Shown one piece after another: positions 1 through 6,135 of a stretch of 6,135 nt of DNA. Where the stretch lies: contig CASEPH010000037.1 of assembly GCA_949289625.1 (NCBI GenBank), positions 1-6,135 of the forward strand, written 5' to 3'. Below the pieces are notes generated by a model. It saw nothing but the letters and a program-made list of their open reading frames with translations. It did no database searches and was not told the origin of the DNA. Every line of letters starts with the position of its first letter. The stretch's first letter is position 1. This stretch comes from an uncultured Clostridia bacterium (GTDB lineage Bacteria; Bacillota_A; Clostridia; Oscillospirales; Oscillospiraceae). The position numbers and the translations under genes were made by a program.

Positions 1-543
1 AAAACTGTAACGGAGTACCGGAAGAAGATGCTCTCCACCTCCGTCAAAGACGGAAAGGCGGTTTTGCAGGAATTGACCGGCCAGCGCAAGGAAGAAGCCG
101 AGGATGACGATATGGACTGGGAGGAGGAAGTCCTGGGCGAGATGGAGGGCGGAGAACCAAACGACCGCTTCTCCAGCTACTGGGATGATGATACGGAGAT
201 GACCTATCCGCTCATCCTGGCCAAGATTCCGGTCAAGAATCCCTGGGAGATCTTCGCGTACCTGCCCTTCGGAAACTGGAACGAGTGCCCCAACACGCCG
301 GAGCTGATGGCTGCGGCCAAATACTGGTTCGAGCAGTACGGCGCGGTGCCTGCCGCGATGAGTCACGATGAGCTGGAATTCCTGCTTCCGGCCCCCGTCC
401 CCAAGGAGAAGGCCATGGACACGGCGGTGGAACTGTATGGCTTCTGCCCCGATATCATCGACCAGGGGCCGGAGGACGCCACCGTGGGCGCTCTGGCCGA
501 TGTGCTGCGGCAGTCCACTGTTTGGTACTTCTGGTGGGATTGA
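1..543 (+). CDS. DUF4253-domain protein, C-terminal part (5' end outside window)
   Basis: The reading frame is open from base 1 to the TGA at 541-543, so the true start probably lies upstream. The ATG at 28 is in frame but has no well-placed ribosome site, so I treat the gene as partial. After an acidic linker (roughly residues 30-55 counted from base 1, rich in D and E) comes a domain I recognise as DUF4253. Its hallmarks are NPWEIFAYLPFGNWNECP, then KYWFEQYGAVP, then YGFCPDIIDQGPED, and the terminal VWYFWWD. The family has no established biochemical activity. It is cytosolic here, with no signal peptide or membrane segment in the visible part. It is the first visible gene of a tight operon; the next start is 13 nt after its stop. 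Codon third positions are rich in G/C compared with the following gene. The domain call is from memory of the family pattern, not a search. Confidence 0.85.
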   Translation, partial: KTVTEYRKKMLSTSVKDGKAVLQELTGQRKEEAEDDDMDWEEEVLGEMEGGEPNDRFSSYWDDDTEMTYPLILAKIPVKNPWEIFAYLPFGNWNECPNTPELMAAAKYWFEQYGAVPAAMSHDELEFLLPAPVPKEKAMDTAVELYGFCPDIIDQGPEDATVGALADVLRQSTVWYFWWD

Positions 544-556
544 AAGGAGAATTTTT

Positions 557-1270
557 GTGGGATACGATGTGAGTTTTCACCCAATTTCACCAGAGGAAAT
601 GCGGGAATGGTATTTTACTCCCTTAACCTGGATACAGCAGGGACAGGAGGAAAAAGTGCTGGCCCTTGCCGCGCAGCATGGAATGGAGGATTTCTATGCC
701 GAAAAATATCTGAATACCTTGCGCATTGGGGCTGAAACGGAATCTAACGAGCTGTTTGACAAAAGCCACGGCTTCTATATTGCAGTAATCCAAGGCTTCT
801 TCCGAGATTACTATTACACCAGGGGCAGTGCCTTTTCTTTTCTGGTGGAAGAAAAGCCGGAATATGGGCGGTATTTCACGCCATGGACACAGGTGGCGCC
901 GGCTGCCCTTCCTAATCCGGCAGAAAATCAGATCATCGAAAATTACTGCTCCGGTGTTTACCTGTCTCCAAAGCAGGTCACGCAGCTTCTCAAAGATATG
1001 GAGCAGGCCCCTAAAGTGCTTGAAGATCTGGAGGAAGTTTGGAGCGACGGGCGGGTTGCGGTGCTGAAAAAGGCACTTGTCGCTGCGGCAGAATTGGGTG
1101 TTGGTCTGCTGGAAGCCACTGAGGTGGTGGAACCTAACCCTATCCGCCCCAATGAGAGCACGAGTTATTCCAACCTATACCACTGCGACCGGGACGGGGT
1201 GTATTTCTACATGGACGCTGTCAGAAAACAGCTTGAAGATGTCATCAGGAGAAGTGAGGGACAAGTATGA
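557..1270 (+). CDS. Conserved-looking hypothetical protein, 237 residues
   Basis: I do not recognise a named family. The start is the GTG at 557, giving an N-terminus beginning MGYDVSFHPISPEEM. It sits 7 nt after a good GGAG (546-549, within AAAGGAGA). The frame is open further upstream only because it shadows the preceding gene. The protein is soluble, with no signal peptide or membrane helix. The N-terminal half is aromatic-rich (REWYFTPLTW, FFRDYYYTRG, YGRYFTPW). The C-terminal part has GLLEATEVVEPNPIRPNEST followed by YSNLYHCDRDGVYFY. That strongly patterned tail suggests a conserved domain rather than a spurious ORF. It overlaps the next gene by the 4-bp ATGA (1267-1270), implying translational coupling with the DUF4261 gene. 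Its placement between DUF4253 and DUF4261 genes suggests a shared accessory or immunity-type role, but that is inference. Confidence 0.8.
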   Translation: MGYDVSFHPISPEEMREWYFTPLTWIQQGQEEKVLALAAQHGMEDFYAEKYLNTLRIGAETESNELFDKSHGFYIAVIQGFFRDYYYTRGSAFSFLVEEKPEYGRYFTPWTQVAPAALPNPAENQIIENYCSGVYLSPKQVTQLLKDMEQAPKVLEDLEEVWSDGRVAVLKKALVAAAELGVGLLEATEVVEPNPIRPNESTSYSNLYHCDRDGVYFYMDAVRKQLEDVIRRSEGQV

Positions 1271-2148
1271 GCAATCAAGTGTTCCAGCAAAATCTGAACG
1301 ACAAAAAAGGCCCCCAGCCCGGCGGCCCCTTCCTCATCCAGATGCTGTTCAGAGAAAAGGTACCCATGCCGGACAAAGCGGCTATGACCGCCGTGATGGA
1401 ACGGCATATCGGGCCGGTGGAGTGCTTCTGCCATGATAAAAAGACGGCGGGCTTTGCCGCGCTGGAGCATATCGCAGAATTTCAGGACGGCAAATGCCCG
1501 GTGCAGCTTATGGTGATGAAATGCGACAGGTTCAAGGGCAAAGGCTTCGACGAGTTCCTCCTGAGCCAGATGTGGGACTGCCAGGAGGACCGGGACCGGA
1601 TCTTCCGGGAGTGCCGGTATCAGGTGATTGCAACAGATATGCTGGCGGCGGCACTTCCGGCACTGGAGCGGGCCAACCTGGACGCCGACTTCGTGGAGGC
1701 CCTGGCGGAGTTGTACCCCACCTGCGAGGCGTTCTACTTCCAGAACTGCGGCAAGCTCCTGCTGGCGGAGGATGTGCGTTCCCATCAGATTGAAGGCTCG
1801 GATCGGTTCATCCGCTTTGGCGTCAATGTCCGCTTCTTCAACATTGAGGGCACCGAAGATATGCTCATCGACACGGTGGGCATGAGCACCCTGTTTCTGC
1901 CGGATCTCCAGTATCACTTCCACGATATGGACCCCAACTGGGTGGTGAATCACGCCTACAATGTGGCGTCGTACATTCTGGCAAATGACGACCCCATTGA
2001 GGACGGGGAGACGGTGGATGGTGTGGAGGATGGCCAGATGAGCCGGGATGTCCAGTGGAAGTGCCAATATGAGGACGCCCTGATCCAGCCGCCCAGGGCG
2101 GTGCTGGACATCAACATGGGAGGGTACGCGGCCGGGAACCGCGGCTGA
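1267..2148 (+). CDS. DUF4261-domain protein
   Basis: This 293-residue cytosolic protein starts at the ATG overlapping the previous stop, with GAGGG (1256-1260) 6 nt upstream. The N-terminal region (about 20-100) begins PGGPFLIQMLFREKVPMPD. The middle (about 100-185) contains ADMLAAALPALE-like and LYPTCEAFYFQNCGKLL segments. The C-terminal half (about 185-265) matches what I know of DUF4261: RFGVNVRFFNIEG, MLIDTVGMSTLFLPDLQYHF, and then the tail ANDDPIEDGETVDGVED. The function of the family is unknown. The last 25 or so residues look like a poorly conserved tail. Codon use is G/C-rich at third positions, like the DUF4253 gene and unlike the gene between them. Coupling to the preceding gene and a 23-nt gap to the WYL regulator place it in the middle of the operon. 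The family assignment is by recognition and unverified. Confidence 0.82.
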   Translation: MSNQVFQQNLNDKKGPQPGGPFLIQMLFREKVPMPDKAAMTAVMERHIGPVECFCHDKKTAGFAALEHIAEFQDGKCPVQLMVMKCDRFKGKGFDEFLLSQMWDCQEDRDRIFRECRYQVIATDMLAAALPALERANLDADFVEALAELYPTCEAFYFQNCGKLLLAEDVRSHQIEGSDRFIRFGVNVRFFNIEGTEDMLIDTVGMSTLFLPDLQYHFHDMDPNWVVNHAYNVASYILANDDPIEDGETVDGVEDGQMSRDVQWKCQYEDALIQPPRAVLDINMGGYAAGNRG

Positions 2149-2171
2149 CAGCAGCAACTGGGGGTATATCG

Positions 2172-3134
2172 ATGCAAAGGCAAAGCAACATCAGGATCTT
2201 GGAAATTTTACAATACCTCTATCTGCGGACAGATGAGGAGCACCCCGTCACTGTAGCCGACATACTGGATGATCTCAAGGCCAGGGGAATCCATGCAGTT
2301 CGCCAGACAGTGTATGGGGATCTTCAAGATCTTATTTCCACTGGCATTGATATTGTGGTAGTCAAAAGCACGCAAAACCAATATTTTATTGGCAATCGCC
2401 TATTTGAGTATCCCGAGTTAAAGATGCTGACGGATGCTGTTGCATCCTCCAAGGTCATATCGGCGGAAAAAACAAATGAACTCATCCAGAAACTCTGCCG
2501 GCTGACCAGTGAGGCAGAGGCCATGCAGCTTCGCCGTCTGGCGGCAATTTCAAGCCGGATCAAGCCGCATAATGAGAAGGTCTATTACATCATCGATGGT
2601 ATCCAGAATGCCATTCTGGAAAGCCGGCAGATCCAGTTCCAGTATTATGAGTACACGCAGCAGAAAGAGCGAGTTCTCAAGCATAACGGCTATTTTTATA
2701 AGCTGGACCCTTACGCCCTGGAATGGAAAAACGACCACTACTACCTGATCGGGTATTCCCATAAGCACCATGGCATGGCGCATTTCCGTGTGGATCGGCT
2801 GGCCGGAATTGAGATCCTGGAATCCACCTATGTGCCTCAACCTGATTTCGATGTAGCCGACTATACCAATAAGATGATCGATATGTTTGCGGCCGGTCAT
2901 ACTGTCCTCGTCGAACTCCTTTGTGAAAATCGGTTCATGAAAACAATCGTGGATGATTATGGAGAGGCCGTTCCCACACATCCATACGATAGTGAGCATT
3001 TTGTAGCTCAAATCGAAGTAAACCCCAGCGGAACCTTTTATGGATGGGTGTTCAAGTTTATGGGCGGAGTCAAAATTATTGCTCCCCAGAAGTGCGTGGA
3101 GGAGATGGCGCGGATCGCCCGCATATTCCTGTAA
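2172..3134 (+). CDS. WYL-domain transcriptional regulator
   Basis: A 320-residue DNA-binding regulator of normal length for the family. Residues about 5-65 form an N-terminal winged helix-turn-helix (VTVADILDDLKARGI, then RQTVYGDLQDLISTGIDI). Residues about 136-212 are the WYL domain: KLDPYALEWKNDHYYLIGY, where the signature tripeptide is YYL rather than WYL, followed by FRVDRL. The C-terminal region (about 243-318, with FYGWVFKFMGGVKIIAPQ) fits the WCX extension. In studied members the WYL domain senses a ligand, often nucleic acid or a nucleotide, and controls DNA binding. WYL regulators frequently sit in defence and mobile-element loci. The start ATG at 2172 follows a G-run (GGGGG, about 2160-2163 region), a modest ribosome site. 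The gene is 23 nt after the DUF4261 stop and is followed directly by a strong terminator, so it is the last gene of the operon and may autoregulate it. Confidence 0.93.
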   Translation: MQRQSNIRILEILQYLYLRTDEEHPVTVADILDDLKARGIHAVRQTVYGDLQDLISTGIDIVVVKSTQNQYFIGNRLFEYPELKMLTDAVASSKVISAEKTNELIQKLCRLTSEAEAMQLRRLAAISSRIKPHNEKVYYIIDGIQNAILESRQIQFQYYEYTQQKERVLKHNGYFYKLDPYALEWKNDHYYLIGYSHKHHGMAHFRVDRLAGIEILESTYVPQPDFDVADYTNKMIDMFAAGHTVLVELLCENRFMKTIVDDYGEAVPTHPYDSEHFVAQIEVNPSGTFYGWVFKFMGGVKIIAPQKCVEEMARIARIFL

Positions 3135-3138
3135 CAAT

Positions 3139-3185
3139 GTGGCGAGGTGTTACGCATTTTTAACACCTCGCCACGATTTCTTTTT
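3139..3185 (+). terminator. Intrinsic terminator after the WYL gene
   Basis: A perfect 14-bp inverted repeat, GTGGCGAGGTGTTA (3139-3152) and TAACACCTCGCCAC (3161-3174), with an 8-nt loop, is followed by the T-rich GATTTCTTTTT. It begins 4 nt after the WYL stop, so it ends the first operon and insulates it from the promoter at 3192. Confidence 0.92.
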
Positions 3186-3191
3186 GCCCTC

Positions 3192-3220
3192 TTGAATAGA
3201 ACATCTGTACGATTTATAAT
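3192..3220 (+). promoter_or_regulatory. SigA-type promoter of the XRE-ImmA operon
   Basis: TTGAAT (3192-3197) and a perfect TATAAT (3215-3220) are separated by 17 bp. Transcription would start near 3227, giving a leader of about 47 nt that contains the dyad at 3232-3249 before the XRE ribosome site. It is the best promoter in the window. Confidence 0.9.
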
Positions 3221-3231
3221 GAAAGCACGAT

Positions 3232-3249
3232 GTTCGCAGTCAAGCGAAC
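3232..3249 (+). promoter_or_regulatory. Candidate operator, copy 1 (GTTCGC-N6-GCGAAC)
   Basis: A perfect 6-bp dyad with spacer AGTCAA, centred about 14 bp after the predicted start site of the XRE promoter. The same 18-bp sequence, with one spacer change, recurs at 4339-4356. Position and dyad symmetry suit binding by a dimeric XRE repressor, most likely the product of the adjacent gene. An RNA hairpin role in the leader is the alternative. Confidence 0.65.
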
Positions 3250-3273
3250 CGACCACAAGGGGAGGCGCACGAC

Positions 3274-3633
3274 ATGACCTTTGGGGCATTTATTAGTGCA
3301 AAACGAAAAGAGGCCAGGCTGAACCTCCGGGATGCCGCCAGGCATCTCGGGATCGCTTATGGGTATCTCTGTGATATTGAGCAGGGGCGCCGCCCGGCCC
3401 CGGAGGGAAAATTTGTTGAACGCATTTCCTCTTTTCTGTCTTTGAGTAAGGAGGAGTATGAACAACTTCTGGACTTGGCGGCAGACTCCAGGCAGACAGT
3501 CCCAGCAGATCTGCCGGATTATATCCGCCAGCATGATATTGTCCGGGCGGCTCTGAGAGTCGCAAAAGAAGTTGACGCTACGGATGAGGAATGGACGGCG
3601 TTTATGGAAATGCTGAAAAGCCGTCAAAGCTGA
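3274..3633 (+). CDS. XRE-family helix-turn-helix repressor (ImmR-like)
   Basis: A 119-residue cytosolic DNA-binding protein. The HTH spans about residues 5-60: an opening FGAFISAKRKEARLNLRDAA, then the recognition region HLGIAYGYLCDIEQGRRPAP, where the IEQGRRPAP turn is typical of the family. The C-terminal half (about 60-119) is a short alpha-helical tail. The start ATG has GGGGAGG (3259-3265) 8 nt upstream. The stop lies 12 nt before the start of the ImmA-type peptidase gene, an arrangement matching immR-immA of ICEBs1 and similar phage/ICE switches, where the peptidase cleaves the repressor on induction. A Phe-Met pair at residues 110-111 recalls the Phe-Met cleavage site described for ICEBs1 ImmR, but such a short match may be chance. 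Probably autoregulated through the dyad at 3232 and acting also at 4339. Confidence 0.9.
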   Translation: MTFGAFISAKRKEARLNLRDAARHLGIAYGYLCDIEQGRRPAPEGKFVERISSFLSLSKEEYEQLLDLAADSRQTVPADLPDYIRQHDIVRAALRVAKEVDATDEEWTAFMEMLKSRQS

Positions 3634-3645
3634 GGAGGGATTCCC

Positions 3646-4260
3646 TTGTATGCGCCTAAGTACCGACTGGATGCCATTGAAACCATCGGTCGAAAGATCC
3701 TGCTGGAATATGACCGCACACTGCTGGAAGGCCCTCCCCAGGCGATTCCAATCGAAACGATCATTGAAACAAAGTTTGATCTAATCCTGGAGTACCATAC
3801 CCTTCGCAAAAATGGGAGCGTCCTTGGAGAAACCATTTTTGATGATGGAGCGGCCATTTTATATGACCGGACAGAGAGGCGATACCGCTTGATCGCTGTT
3901 AAGGCTGGAACCATTTTGGTGGACGAGCGGCTTTGCGCGGACAGACTTCTCGGCCGGATGCGGTTTACCTGTGCCCATGAACTTGGCCATTGGGTCCTTC
4001 ATCAAAAATTATACTCCGGAACCGGGGATGTGGCAGCCTATGAGGGGAAAACCTCCTCAGACGAAAGCCATGGTCTGATTGAGCGGCAAGCCGATGCACT
4101 GGCAACAGCACTGTTAATGCCCATCCCCCAGGTCAAAAAATGCTTTTACCGTTTGCGTTCCGGGAAAGGCAAGGATCTGCTAACTGCGGAAATGGCCCGG
4201 ATTTTTCAAGTCTCCAAACAGGCTATGCGGATTCGCTTAGAAACTCATAATTTGCTCTGA
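3646..4260 (+). CDS. ImmA/IrrE-family metallopeptidase (anti-repressor)
   Basis: A 204-residue protein with the zinc-metallopeptidase motif HELGH (residues 111-115, in FTCAHELGHWVLHQ) and a downstream acidic ligand region ERQADALATALLMP (about 146-159). Together these define the ImmA/IrrE (DUF955, COG2856) family. The N-terminal 100 residues form the usual mixed domain, and residues 175-200 (LTAEMARIFQVSKQAMRIRL) look like a small HTH-like tail. The start is TTG at 3646, 6 nt after AGGAGGG, which overlaps the stop region of the XRE gene; the nearby ATG at 3650 is out of frame and gives a short product. By analogy with ICEBs1, it would cleave the neighbouring XRE repressor when activated, derepressing element genes. 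Substrate is inferred from adjacency only. All catalytic residues appear intact. Confidence 0.93.
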   Translation: MYAPKYRLDAIETIGRKILLEYDRTLLEGPPQAIPIETIIETKFDLILEYHTLRKNGSVLGETIFDDGAAILYDRTERRYRLIAVKAGTILVDERLCADRLLGRMRFTCAHELGHWVLHQKLYSGTGDVAAYEGKTSSDESHGLIERQADALATALLMPIPQVKKCFYRLRSGKGKDLLTAEMARIFQVSKQAMRIRLETHNLL

Positions 4261-4267
4261 GCTTGGT

Positions 4268-4301
4268 ATGGGAAGGCCCTCTGTTACAGGAGGGCCGCCA
4301 T
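4268..4301 (+). terminator. Hairpin after the ImmA gene, possible weak terminator
   Basis: GGCCCTC (4275-4281) pairs with GAGGGCC (4290-4296) around an 8-nt loop, and the flanking ATGG (4268-4271) can pair with CCAT (4298-4301) across a small internal loop. It starts 7 nt after the ImmA stop. There is only a short, broken T stretch downstream, so termination would be weak or partial. It may limit read-through into the next gene or act as a 3'-end stabiliser. Confidence 0.5.
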
Positions 4302-4329
4302 TTCCAACACAGTTCCCCGGTTTTACGAT
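4301..4329 (+). promoter_or_regulatory. Candidate promoter of the ArpU-like gene
   Basis: TTTCCA (4301-4306) and TACGAT (4324-4329) are 17 bp apart, each matching consensus at four of six positions. Support comes from position: the second copy of the dyad begins 9 nt after this -10, almost the same geometry (11 nt) as at the XRE promoter. Weak on sequence alone. Confidence 0.4.
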
Positions 4330-4338
4330 GCGTGTTTT

Positions 4339-4356
4339 GTTCGCAGTCCAGCGAAC
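4339..4356 (+). promoter_or_regulatory. Candidate operator, copy 2 (GTTCGC-N6-GCGAAC)
   Basis: GTTCGCAGTCCAGCGAAC is identical to copy 1 except for one spacer base (C for A). It lies 4 nt before the ribosome site of the 4377 gene. Sharing with the XRE leader suggests that the repressor controls both transcripts. Confidence 0.65.
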
Positions 4357-4376
4357 GCGGAAGGAGGAAGGATAGC

Positions 4377-4919
4377 ATGAGGAAAGAGAGTGTCACTGTC
4401 CAGAAATGCAAGAAACAGATGGCCTCCCTTGGATTTGACAGCCAATTGGCCTACCACAGGGTAAAGTTGATTTTGAAGATCTACCGGGACGTGGTGTGGG
4501 TCCTCAGTGAGCGCGCAGAGGAGCTGCACGCATACGCATGGGAACTCGGGAATCGGGACGCTGATGCCGGCCTCTGCTATCTGGAAAACTTTGCCCCAGA
4601 CATCGACCTCCAGGAATTTGAGGAAAGAGTCTGTTGTGTCATGGAGAGCCGTATGCTGGTGGATGTGATCGACCGGGCCCTGCTCCGGCTGAAACGGTAC
4701 CCAGACCGCGGAGAACTCTACTATGAGATCCTGACCAAGCAATTCATCTATCGGTTCAACAGTACAGAAAAGGAACTGTTGGACGAGCTGAATATGGAGC
4801 GAAGTGTATTTTATGACCGGAAGCGGGAGGCGCTTTTTCTGTTTTCTGTCTGCCTCTTTGGGTATGCTGTTCCTGAACTGCAGAAAGAACTGGAGGCGCC
4901 CCGACTATTTCCCGACTGA
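4377..4919 (+). CDS. ArpU/RinA-like phage/ICE transcriptional regulator
   Basis: A 180-residue soluble protein starting at the ATG at 4377, set by AGGAGG (4362-4367) 9 nt upstream. The frame is open back to 4263, but that stretch holds the hairpin and dyad and is unlikely to be coding. The N-terminal part begins MRKESVTVQKCKKQMASLGF. The middle (about 25-105) is helical with several cysteines. Residues about 105-165 resemble the C-terminal region of ArpU/RinA-type regulators: YPDRGELYYEILTKQFIYRF, then TEKELLDELNMERSVFYDRKREAL, a sigma-region-4-like HTH. Such proteins activate late or packaging genes in Gram-positive phages and occur in related ICEs. The last six codons overlap an 11-bp repeat array leading into a -35-less promoter, a natural target for this protein. 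The exact family is uncertain; a distant sigma-like protein is the main alternative. Confidence 0.72.
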   Translation: MRKESVTVQKCKKQMASLGFDSQLAYHRVKLILKIYRDVVWVLSERAEELHAYAWELGNRDADAGLCYLENFAPDIDLQEFEERVCCVMESRMLVDVIDRALLRLKRYPDRGELYYEILTKQFIYRFNSTEKELLDELNMERSVFYDRKREALFLFSVCLFGYAVPELQKELEAPRLFPD

Positions 4920-4966
4920 TTCCCGATGAAAAACCGACCTAATCCCTACTCCCTTCCGACTTTGCC
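4901..4966 (+). repeat. Six-copy phased 11-bp direct repeat (CCGACTNNTTC)
   Basis: The pentamer CCGAC or a one-base variant starts at 4901, 4912, 4923 (CCGAT), 4934, 4945 (CCTAC) and 4956, an exact 11-bp period with no slip. Copies 1 and 2 agree at nine of eleven positions; copies 3 and 5 are the most diverged. The array begins inside the 3' end of the ArpU-like gene and ends 5 bp before the TATACT at 4972. Near-helical spacing places every copy on one face of DNA, as in activator arrays such as PhoB-type boxes. Confidence 0.85.
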
Positions 4967-4971
4967 TCTGC

Positions 4972-4977
4972 TATACT
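4972..4977 (+). promoter_or_regulatory. -10 element TATACT of an activator-dependent promoter
   Basis: TATACT matches five of six consensus -10 positions. With 17-bp spacing the -35 would be CTCCCT (4949-4954), which does not resemble TTGACA and lies inside the phased array. This suggests that a protein bound to the repeats replaces -35 recognition. Transcription would start near 4984. Confidence 0.6.
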
Positions 4978-4983
4978 CGGTAC

Positions 4984-5127
4984 AGTGGCAGGTATGCGCA
5001 AAAATGAATCATTCCAGTCAGTAAGGCCCCAGGCGCCGGGAAAGCGCCTGGGGCCTTACCGCTCCTGTCGCAATATGGCGGCAGGAGTTTGCCGGGGACG
5101 CTGAAATACGTCCCCGGCTTTTTTTCT
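4984..5127 (+). ncRNA. Candidate structured small RNA or terminated leader, three hairpins
   Basis: From the predicted start near 4984 the transcript would fold into three consecutive hairpins. Hairpin A is a perfect 16-bp stem (5021-5036 with 5044-5059) with a 7-nt loop. Hairpin B is a 10-bp stem with one G-U pair (5062-5071 with 5078-5087). Hairpin C is the terminator at 5091-5127. There is no good ORF in the span. The result is either an independent RNA of about 140 nt or a leader whose terminator must be passed to express the sigma-like gene at 5237. I recognise no known RNA family. A transfer-origin role for the inverted repeats cannot be excluded. Confidence 0.5.
5091..5127 (+). terminator. 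Strong intrinsic terminator
   Basis: GCCGGGGACG (5091-5100) pairs perfectly with CGTCCCCGGC (5109-5118) across an 8-nt loop, followed by seven T residues and CT. It lies between the array promoter and the sigma-like gene, so downstream transcription needs read-through, antitermination or another promoter. Confidence 0.93.
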
Positions 5128-5149
5128 GCCCGGTACCAGGAGGATCGGT

Positions 5150-5185
5150 GTGGGCTGGGAGGCTTATATCGCCAAGTACCCCTGA
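5150..5185 (+). CDS. Possible 11-codon upstream ORF / leader peptide
   Basis: A GTG at 5150 lies 6 nt after a perfect AGGAGG (5138-5143) and encodes MGWEAYIAKYP before a TGA at 5183-5185. The ribosome site is among the best in the window, yet the ORF is tiny. Its stop codon touches the base of the 16-bp hairpin at 5185-5221, so a terminating ribosome would cover or open that stem. It could be a regulatory leader peptide or the remnant of a truncated gene. A neighbouring GTG at 5148 in another frame runs into the sigma-like gene and is less well placed. Confidence 0.4.
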   Translation: MGWEAYIAKYP

Positions 5186-5221
5186 TTTCAAGATTTTGAT
5201 TTCCCATCAAAATCTTGAAAT
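5185..5221 (+). repeat. 16-bp inverted repeat directly upstream of the sigma-like gene
   Basis: ATTTCAAGATTTTGAT (5185-5200) is the exact reverse complement of ATCAAAATCTTGAAAT (5206-5221), with loop TTCCC. It ends 2 nt before the GGAGG ribosome site (5224-5228) of the gene at 5237. It is A/T-rich, unlike the G/C-rich hairpins before it, and lacks a proper U-tract, so a terminator is less likely than an operator dyad or a translational-control stem. Confidence 0.85.
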
Positions 5222-5236
5222 TTGGAGGAACGGCAA

Positions 5237-5695
5237 ATGGATGCCAATACAAAATATACCCTTATCGTTTTCAATACCTGTACGCAGAAATACGAAGAAG
5301 TCGCAGTGACCGAGGAAGTCTATCGCACTTACTGCAGGACAGGCTGGAATATCAAAGATAATGACCTGAGTTTCTTTGACCATGAGATCCAGTTAAGTGG
5401 GATGATCGGCAGTCAGGATGGCGCATACGAAAACTTCCGTGAATTTGTTGACTCTGTAAATACACCAGAGAATATTGTACTTTCCCAGATAGAAAAAGAA
5501 GCACTGTACCAAGCAATCTCTGCATTACCAACTAAAAGCCGCAGCTTGGTACAGAGTTTGTTTTTTGAGGGGCTCAGCGAGTATGAATATGCGGATATGC
5601 TTGGTGTTTCACGCGCTGCGATACACAAGCGGAAGATGCGGATACTCAGGGTCCTCAAAAAAACTTTGAGAAAATTTAAATTTGGGGGTTGCTAA
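5237..5695 (+). CDS. Sigma-70 region 4-type protein of ICE family
   Basis: A 152-residue protein starting at the ATG at 5237, set by GGAGG (5224-5228) 8 nt upstream; a TTG at 5222 in frame overlaps that ribosome site and is rejected. The N-terminal 70 residues (YTLIVFNTCTQKYEEVAVTE, then TGWNIKDNDLSFFDHEIQLS) match the lead-in commonly seen in ICE-borne sigma-like proteins of Clostridia. Residues about 85-145 are a sigma-70 region 4: LYQAISALPTKSRSLVQSLF, then FEGLSEYEYADMLGVSRAAI and HKRKMRILRVL, with the HTH at about 112-135. Region 2 is absent, so it is not a full sigma factor; it may act as an activator or a partner of another factor. The C-terminus is basic (LKKTLRKFKFGGC). It probably controls transfer genes downstream. 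The start is preceded by a terminator, a short ORF and a hairpin, suggesting layered control. Confidence 0.88.
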   Translation: MDANTKYTLIVFNTCTQKYEEVAVTEEVYRTYCRTGWNIKDNDLSFFDHEIQLSGMIGSQDGAYENFREFVDSVNTPENIVLSQIEKEALYQAISALPTKSRSLVQSLFFEGLSEYEYADMLGVSRAAIHKRKMRILRVLKKTLRKFKFGGC

Positions 5696-5696
5696 A

Positions 5697-5753
5697 ATGC
5701 GGACTTCTTCCCCTATACAAGCGAGAAGAAAGAGCTTCTCGGTTGTTCCTTGA
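5697..5753 (+). CDS. Possible 18-residue leader peptide
   Basis: An ATG one base after the sigma-like stop, with GGGGG (5684-5688) 8 nt upstream, encodes MRTSSPIQARRKSFSVVP. It overlaps a 7-bp hairpin (5722-5741). Nothing identifies it beyond ribosome-site spacing, basic composition and its position, so it may be chance. Confidence 0.25.
   Translation: MRTSSPIQARRKSFSVVP
5722..5741 (+). terminator. Hairpin after the sigma-like gene, possible weak terminator
   Basis: CGAGAAG (5722-5728) pairs with CTTCTCG (5735-5741) over a 6-nt loop, followed by GTTGTTCCTT, a poor U-tract. TTCTTC at 5705-5710 can instead pair with GAAGAA at 5725-5730, which would disrupt this stem, so an attenuator-like switch is possible. 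Confidence 0.35.
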
Positions 5754-6135
5754 AAACAGAATACCCGATCATCTGGATACTTTCCTGACGGGGCCCTCTG
5801 AACAAGGGCAAGCGACGCTGGAGGATGCGCCAAGACCACCTGTAGATGCACAGCGCAGGGTTGCAGACGAAGACACCCATACTGTTCTGTTCGGTTCTGA
5901 CAACCAGGCTGACCCACATCTATCAACGACGGCCAAACAAGGTGCAAGCGGGTCCATCCGTCCACAAAACAGCCTGTGGCGGGCTGTTTCGCAACGACTC
6001 CGTCAGGGACAATGATACTTCTGCCCAGTCCCAGCCGCAAGCAAGGAGGGCAGCCGGGAGAGATCCTCGCGGGGGTGAGACGCCCATGACGCGGTGAAGC
6101 CAGCTGCGGTCCAGATCGGTTGCCCTGTCGCCTGG
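5754..6135. other. Stretch of about 380 bases without a convincing gene
   Basis: No ORF here has both a good ribosome site and recognisable protein features. The longest forward frame (5846-6097) has no ribosome site and an uninformative composition. A perfect 8-bp hairpin, AAACAGCC (5967-5974) with GGCTGTTT (5982-5989), is the clearest structure. A GTG at 6094 opens a frame (MKPAAVQIGCPVAW) that runs to the window edge, but its nearest G-rich tract (about 6070-6078) is too far upstream to be convincing. The stretch could be a long leader or a cis-acting region such as a transfer origin; I see no diagnostic motif. Confidence 0.5.

Follow-up and report, generated by a model that had tools for sequence, protein, structure and literature searches.

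Organization of the locus

The 6,135-nucleotide stretch analysed here (hereafter the window) comes from an uncultured Clostridia bacterium of the Oscillospiraceae (GenBank assembly GCA_949289625.1, contig CASEPH010000037.1, positions 1 to 6,135) and contains the gene of a small putative regulator (P0001) followed by an array of short direct repeats, a predicted promoter and a predicted intrinsic terminator (Table 1). Judging from the sequences of related loci, regulator, array, predicted -10 element, a second -10-like hexamer and the terminator recur together.

The array consists of six CCGAC-like units (in order, CCGAC, CCGAC, CCGAT, CCGAC, CCTAC and CCGAC). A first-pass annotation of this DNA had placed them at exact 11-bp steps, and our recount found all six at the positions that it gave. 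It had also been right that the array stops 5 bp before TATACT, since unit 6, taken as an 11-mer, ends at 4966 and the hexamer occupies 4972 to 4977, and that no -35 element is present, the best match to TTGACA being 2/6 at a spacing of 16 to 18 bp. Overlooked in that annotation were the TGC at 4969 to 4971, the second -10-like hexamer and the terminator. With TGC directly before TATACT, the promoter would be of the extended -10 type. Tandem Repeats Finder called a period of 11 at 4900 to 4926, and the self-match at lag 11 (31/55 positions, z 4.6) was the best of lags 5 to 22 and was equalled by none of 200 dinucleotide shuffles, values on which a chance origin of the periodicity was rejected.

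Table 1. Coordinates of the features discussed in the text.
Feature	Position	Strand	Remarks
Array-binding regulator gene (putative binder), 180 aa, P0001	4377..4919	+	distant ArpU/RinA-like
Array unit 1, CCGACTATTTC	4901..4911	+	within regulator gene
Array unit 2, CCGACTGATTC	4912..4922	+	overlaps stop codon of regulator gene
Array unit 3, CCGATGAAAAA	4923..4933	+	
Array unit 4, CCGACCTAATC	4934..4944	+	
Array unit 5, CCTACTCCCTT	4945..4955	+	roughly at -35 position
Array unit 6, CCGACTTTGCC	4956..4966	+	between -35 and -10 positions; unit start to -10, 16 bp
Extended -10, TGC TATACT	4969..4977	+	TGC at 4969-4971
Second -10-like hexamer, TACAGT	4981..4986	+	9 bp after first hexamer; predicted start near 4984
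Initially transcribed stretch, AGTGGCAGGTATGCGCAAA	4984..5002	+	nearly invariant (13-sequence leader alignment A6, window's cluster)
Leader hairpin 1, perfect 16-bp stem	5021..5059	+	T run after it in relatives such as L017, none in window
Leader hairpin 2, CTCCTGYCGC/GCGGCAGGAG	5062..5087	+	strongly conserved
Intrinsic terminator (predicted), 10-bp GC stem and TTTTTTT	5091..5125	+	-21.6; T run about 135 nt past predicted start
Palindrome GTTCGC-N6-GCGAAC, putative operator	3232..3249	.	before ImmR-like gene
ImmR-like helix-turn-helix gene (putative repressor)	3274..3633	+	HTH_31
ImmA-like metalloprotease gene	3646..4260	+	Peptidase_M78
Same palindrome, GTTCGC-N6-GCGAAC	4339..4356	.	before array-binding regulator gene
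Sigma-70-region-4-like gene	5237..5695	+	first full gene past terminator

Conservation of the array among regulator homologues

A protein search returned 259 homologues of the regulator at E <= 0.001, the best 120 of which were listed; the loci were drawn from genome, plasmid, phage and viral collections. Eighty regulator matches yielded 55 unique downstream regions, of which 48 were aligned on the -10 element and fell into 17 clusters at 70% identity. Seven truncated, fragmentary or very distant loci with no clear promoter (L058, L062, L071, L073, L036, L082 and L074) were left out before this alignment, which flatters the counts given below out of 48 and 17. The script that chose the -10 element rewarded a preceding TGn with a bonus, and where it took another hexamer the element was set by hand (L001, L017, L030, L042, L043, L060, L069, L070 and L080, nine of the 48), at a stage when the hexamer pair described below had already been noticed.

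The first-pass annotation had proposed looking for conserved 11-bp periodicity below homologues of the regulator, and this was found: the array is present down to 31 to 44% identity, with its last unit at a fixed distance from the -10 element. In each of the 28 loci of the CCGAC type (seven clusters), several direct repeats lie shortly ahead of the start, and the distance from the beginning of one unit to the -10 is exactly 16 bp. Every step measures 11 bp in 23 of them; L042, L004, L078, L043 and L046 have a final step of 12 bp. The penultimate unit reads CCTAC in all other relatives of this type but L041, as does unit 5 of the window. The remaining loci have other words in the same frame (NGAAC, GNNAC, GGCAC and similar, judged by eye), and the repeats are degenerate in the outer clade. 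The number of units ranges from 4 (L046) to about 8 (L060), and the near-identical loci L001, L017 and L018 carry 5, 6 and 7, respectively. No shuffle reached the observed lag-11 score in 32 of the 55 loci and 9 of the 17 clusters. The low scores of L046 and L043 are due to the position of their arrays beyond another reading frame, one that resembles the N terminus of LexA by eye.

In 46 of the 48 aligned loci the regulator gene stands directly upstream of the promoter, with 29 to 117 bp between its stop codon and the -10; in L043 and L046, with the intervening frame, the distance is 242 and 274 bp. The overlap of the array with the regulator gene, from which the first-pass annotation had expected the two to move together, is incidental, and a functional role for it was rejected because it is not conserved among the aligned loci. 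TGn precedes the -10 in 42 of the 48 loci and in 12 of the 17 cluster representatives.

We also searched with the array alone. Three units followed by TGnTA matched six stretches of the viral collection, among them the new loci L050 to L052, and in all six a regulator homologue ends just upstream. One of these, the viral contig L052, carries a regulator gene with one in-frame stop codon (1729 to 2283) and an intact six-unit array. The same pattern in 391 genomes of the class gave a single match, the already known locus. The three-unit pattern with one mismatch, applied to 10 genomes, retrieved the known arrays and 10 scattered matches, a number not above the reversed control. Two array-like ones were inspected by eye: a 38% identical homologue lies upstream in L046, and L047 lacks one. 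We also rejected the idea that the array represents arm-type recombination sites or replication iterons, since its place before the -10 is the same with a tyrosine-type (L017) or a serine-type recombinase (L032, L044) and homologues also precede likely conjugation genes.

The regulator and its match to the array

The AlphaFold2 model of P0001 is made of helices only, with a sigma-region-4-like C-terminal helix-turn-helix (HTH) at about residues 93 to 166. Against the ArpU family model TIGR01637 it scores 15.5 bits (E 0.015), below the curated cut-off of 43.1 bits; E values of 0.01 or lower were obtained for 10 of the 16 A3 members (best, 2.1e-6). By sequence, P0001 is thus a distant ArpU relative that we do not file as a member of the family. 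Alt and RinA showed no detectable homology to the regulator family profile (scores of -0.9 and -1.0), and neither Q nor AlpA was among the 50 matches listed in each of two comparisons; the fold seen is sigma-region-4-like.

Across the 17 clusters, the distance between regulator proteins correlates with the distance between unit words (Mantel r 0.48, a value reached in 0 of 5000 permutations), whereas no such relation holds for a control stretch 180 bp away (r 0.01, with 2268 of 5000 permutations as high). The partner proposed in the first-pass annotation, the adjacent ArpU/RinA-like protein as a putative activator binding cooperatively along one DNA face, is supported by comparison: the unit words track the regulator and the array-only searches lead to its gene; the ArpU label itself is distant. 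Residue 147 of the recognition helix is aspartate in the CCGAC class, lysine or glutamine in the NGAAC class and arginine elsewhere. It was rejected as proof of specificity because the tree requires no more than a single origin of the aspartate, which amounts to one event and leaves the residue as a lead.

The array might instead be occupied, perhaps for repression, by another protein of the element. Examples would be the sigma-4-like product of 5237 to 5695 and the ImmR-like protein, both DNA-binding by family and encoded within about 1.7 kb. We consider this very improbable. Besides the tracking of the unit words and the regulator gene just upstream of all six array-only matches, a different palindrome, common to the ImmR-like and regulator genes, is a better ImmR site, and the outer-clade loci L068, L072 and L079 have other genes in place of the sigma-4-like gene.

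A second -10-like hexamer and a terminator follow the promoter

Shortly after the first -10 element comes a second hexamer of the form T1A2T6, which stands at +9 in 11 of the 17 representatives, at +8 in another 3, and at either offset in 43 of the 48 loci. In 5000 shuffles no offset exceeded 6/17, and among 535 other TGnTA...T control sites in the fetched DNA 4.5% had such a hexamer at +9 and 1.9% at +8. The second hexamer was rejected as the real -10, being farther from TATAAT and seldom preceded by TGn (by eye).

Calling as terminators hairpins of -8 kcal/mol or lower followed by a T run, we found one after the promoter in 17 of 17 clusters; in each, the span from 53 to 152 nt past the predicted start holds one or more hairpins of -13.3 or stronger. 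The T run begins 53 to 77 nt past that start in 13 clusters and 98 to 152 nt past it in the other four, window included. At the same -8 limit, the controls were positive in 33 of 170 shuffles and in 4 of 17 stretches taken from upstream.

The window's cluster comprises 17 loci, and the leaders of 13 were aligned. Roughly the first 19 transcribed bases hardly vary. The terminator hairpin does vary, with its stem preserved by compensatory changes; of the 31 predicted pairs, 10 have changed on both sides. The sequence GTGGCAGG at 4985 to 4992 is a near-copy of the 3' arm of hairpin 2 and, given this resemblance, could pair with CCTGYCGC in an alternative fold. Over the 17 clusters, folds of the 5' 27 nt are more stable than those of control windows (mean z -1.7 against -0.25; 12 of 17 below -1.3), but weakly so in the window's own cluster (z -0.58).

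The strong conservation of this leader, its compensatory changes and the stable 5' end would all suit a small RNA, in which case the array would drive a terminated leader of roughly 140 nt and the operon behind it would be read from elsewhere. This seems improbable to us, as the leaders of different clusters look unrelated by eye beyond the first bases, no Rfam family matched the leader on the forward strand, and PemK-like frames follow in L017 (by Pfam) and in L005, L038 and L040 (by eye), as if the downstream operon mattered.

Phage late regulators share the hexamer pair

For the phage side, seven of 48 listed matches were fetched and two records were added by accession, giving nine loci with a RinA- or Alt-like gene. 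To these we added L086, which is genomic and scores below the cut-off of TIGR01637; it was picked for its repeats from 10 such loci and was the one among them used in the second-hexamer test. TIGR01637 was rejected as a way to further arrays, since lag 11 was best in L086 alone of the 10 loci inspected. No promoter follows the gene in the phage bIL310 (L121), which was left out of the shuffle test.

Nine of these 10 RinA/Alt/ArpU-type loci have a second hexamer at +8 (TATTAT, TAGTGT, TATTGT, TAGCGT, TAGTAT or TAGCAT), and shuffles reach 5/9 at most. Some of the phage promoters are 67 to 72% alike, and the -10 of phi11 and DW2 was chosen partly for the second hexamer, which leaves seven of the nine cases independent of that choice. 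Lag 11 was the best in 4 of the 10 (TP901-1, J4, PLg-TB25 and L086). Terminator-like hairpins were called before the next gene in phi11 and J4 (-13.2, the same sequence), DW2 (-12.4), PLE2 (-14.4), ul36 (-10.4) and PLg-TB25 (-8.1 and -8.6), and none before the next gene in TP712, L086 and bIL310. The late promoters after rinA in phi11 and J4 (L114 and L116) have an intrinsic terminator directly before terS.

In the available text of PMC13123087, RinA, Alt and Ltr are described as transcription activators or regulators, and TP901-1 Alt and phi13 Ltr as binding, or probably binding, direct repeats upstream of the start and activating late genes. No description of RinA, Alt or Ltr as antiterminators was found in the open-licence literature, among the matches listed. 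By analogy with Alt and Ltr, the regulator of the window might be a plain activator that binds the array and switches on the promoter, with the terminator ending some of the transcripts or insulating the operon and the second hexamer tuning promoter escape or marking a second start. Every array result fits this possibility equally well. We nevertheless rate it clearly below even odds, as it leaves unexplained both the terminator after the promoter in all 17 clusters and the near-fixed -10-like hexamer in 14 of the 17 and in 9 of 10 RinA/Alt/ArpU-type loci.

Neighbouring genes and element context

Upstream of the regulator lies a putative ImmR/ImmA-like pair, and the palindrome before the ImmR-like gene recurs before the regulator gene. 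Fourteen loci, window included, were scanned for it: the exact palindrome occupies both places in five, a variant with TGTTCG arms stands at both in L017 and L001, and seven show no recurring perfect palindrome. From these sequences, the switch formed by regulator and array probably stands below ImmR/ImmA.

The operon of the relative L017 runs from a frame without Pfam match through PemK and two HTH_17 proteins to a tyrosine integrase, while L032 and L044 carry serine recombinases; recombinase genes lie behind the switch in the inner clades. In the outer clade, frames of L072 and L068 have weak, below-cut-off matches to TrbC/VirB2 and TrbL/VirB6, and a frame of L079 has no such Pfam match. Frames that look VirB2-like or VirB6-like follow the regulator homologues of L068, L069, L070, L072 and L079, which suggests that a second class of the switch may drive a conjugation operon. 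These predicted operon contents fit a late switch.

Three further observations concern the DNA beyond the terminator. A micro-open reading frame (micro-ORF) at 5150 to 5185, VGWEAYIAKYP*, with a Shine-Dalgarno sequence directly before it, looks like a conserved leader peptide: by eye, L017, L003 and L007 have MRWEAYIAKYP, MGWEAYIAKYP and VDWETYIAKYP, L032 and L041 have longer versions ending in RYP*, and L005 has none. Directly after it and before the ribosome site of the sigma-4-like gene stands a perfect 15-bp hairpin (5186 to 5220), which may couple translation of the leader peptide to the downstream gene; L007 and L017 have a stem of differing sequence at this position (by eye). Finally, a pemK RNA motif (RF02913) lies at 6009 to 6089 (68.1 bits), and in L017 the PemK toxin gene is found further down the operon.

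A proposed late switch

The explanation that we favour, at a little better than even odds (about 0.55), is a late switch of the Alt/RinA kind, carried by an integrative mobile element, whose regulator activates transcription via the array and probably also lets RNA polymerase pass the terminator. The neighbouring sigma-region-4-like regulator would use the array as its operator. Several copies of it would line up along one DNA face, those nearest the start at about -39 and -28, and substitute for the missing -35 at the extended -10 promoter. Comparison of the loci supports activation of this kind and strongly implies both binding of the array by the regulator and its replacement of the -35. 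At the beginning of the transcript, the -10-like hexamer would then hold sigma region 2 and pause RNA polymerase while the bound regulator is handed over. The loaded complex would read through the terminator into the operon, that is, into the sigma-4-like gene in the window and, in L017, into the frame without Pfam match, PemK, the two HTH_17 proteins and the tyrosine integrase. Upstream, an ImmR-like repressor would keep the regulator gene off via the shared palindrome until the ImmA-like protease removes it. The module would thus be a phage-late-type switch firing excision of the element and, tentatively, a conjugation operon in the sister clade. The second -10-like element and the terminator suggest something beyond plain activation, and the sigma-dependent pause, loading and terminator bypass are inferred by analogy with Q and AlpA.

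Several results weigh against this proposal. The -10 had to be set by hand for 4 of the 17 representatives (L042, L043, L060 and L069), the script having picked a later hexamer. The outer-clade repeats are degenerate, 7 of 11 loci there being equalled by at least 36 of 200 shuffles; TGn is missing in 5 of the 17 representatives; and L068, L069 and L072 have ATGACA (5/6) at a -35 position. No second hexamer was found in three of the 17 representatives (L044, L002 and L061), and its spacing of 8 to 9 bp, against about 11 bp at the AlpA promoter if the -10 of the latter has its usual position, makes the pause tentative. The terminator could alternatively define a small RNA or insulate the operon. 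On the protein side, the A5 profile did not match the solved Q and AlpA chains, and the match of the regulator to the 'Q-like' phrog_79 is weak (E 0.067).

More tentatively, and with a probability that we place somewhat short of even, Q-type loading antiterminators might include the Gram-positive phage regulators of the RinA, Alt and ArpU types as well as the present mobile-element family, and integrative elements would use this switch for excision and, in the sister clade, for conjugation. Common to all would be a sigma-region-4-like protein on a phased array, a sigma-dependent pause at a -10-like hexamer 8 to 9 bp after the -10, and travel through terminators. The near-fixed pair of -10 hexamers and the terminators are a concrete reason to test the RinA, Alt and Ltr types for antitermination. 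For annotation, four to eight units of 11 bp, the last of them 16 bp before an extended -10, could serve as a rule to recognize a mobile-element operon switch and its regulator.

Comparison with known systems

ICEBs1 has an ImmR/ImmA pair. As there, an HTH gene and a Peptidase_M78-type gene lie adjacent upstream in the window; here, the ImmR/ImmA-like pair stands above a separate array-binding regulator, in a circuit that we infer from the shared palindrome. Other conjugative elements of Gram-positive bacteria, Tn916 with the canT RNA and pLS20 with ConAn1/conAn2, have operons gated by terminators and processive antitermination (PMC11658703, PMC8955417). Unlike the system proposed here, they use a cis-acting RNA, or RNA plus protein, and the available text of these sources describes no promoter-bound DNA array.

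Among the phages, TP901-1 is similar in having its regulator gene directly upstream and direct repeats before the start, namely four imperfect ones at -76 to -32 (cited in the available text of PMC13123087). Lag 11 is best just after the alt stop codon, and the extended -10 TGATATACT is followed 8 bp on by TATTAT. Alt differs in driving phage packaging genes rather than element excision, in a second hexamer at +8 instead of +9, and in terminator-like hairpins that are weak (-9.2 to -11.1) and far downstream, near terS. RinA of phi11 and Ltr of phi13 are likewise small late regulators encoded directly before their promoter. In phi11, TGGCAG occurs twice 11 bp apart, TATTAT is followed by TAGTGT at +8 and an intrinsic terminator precedes terS; unlike here, there is no TGn and the best lag is 22, not 11. 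The repeats of phi13 measure 18 bp, as given in the available portion of PMC13123087.

The loading sites of Q (21 and lambda) and AlpA, as far as the accessible parts of PMC6606751 and PMC9371919 describe them, combine a promoter-internal binding element, a -10-like sequence in the initially transcribed region and a downstream terminator, and 21Q carries a sigma-region-4-like HTH. They differ from the present loci in having one or two binding sites instead of four to eight phased units, and the AlpA promoter has a -35 that the window promoter lacks. The likenesses are a -10-like sequence early in the transcript (14/17 clusters here), a terminator downstream (17/17) and, for 21Q, the sigma-region-4-like HTH; the Q and AlpA binding element lies between -35 and -10, and here the last unit begins 16 bp ahead of the -10 in all 28 CCGAC-type loci. 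With the start site and the pause as predicted from the sequence, a second -10-like hexamer together with a downstream terminator would be the cis-anatomy of Q and AlpA antiterminator loading sites.
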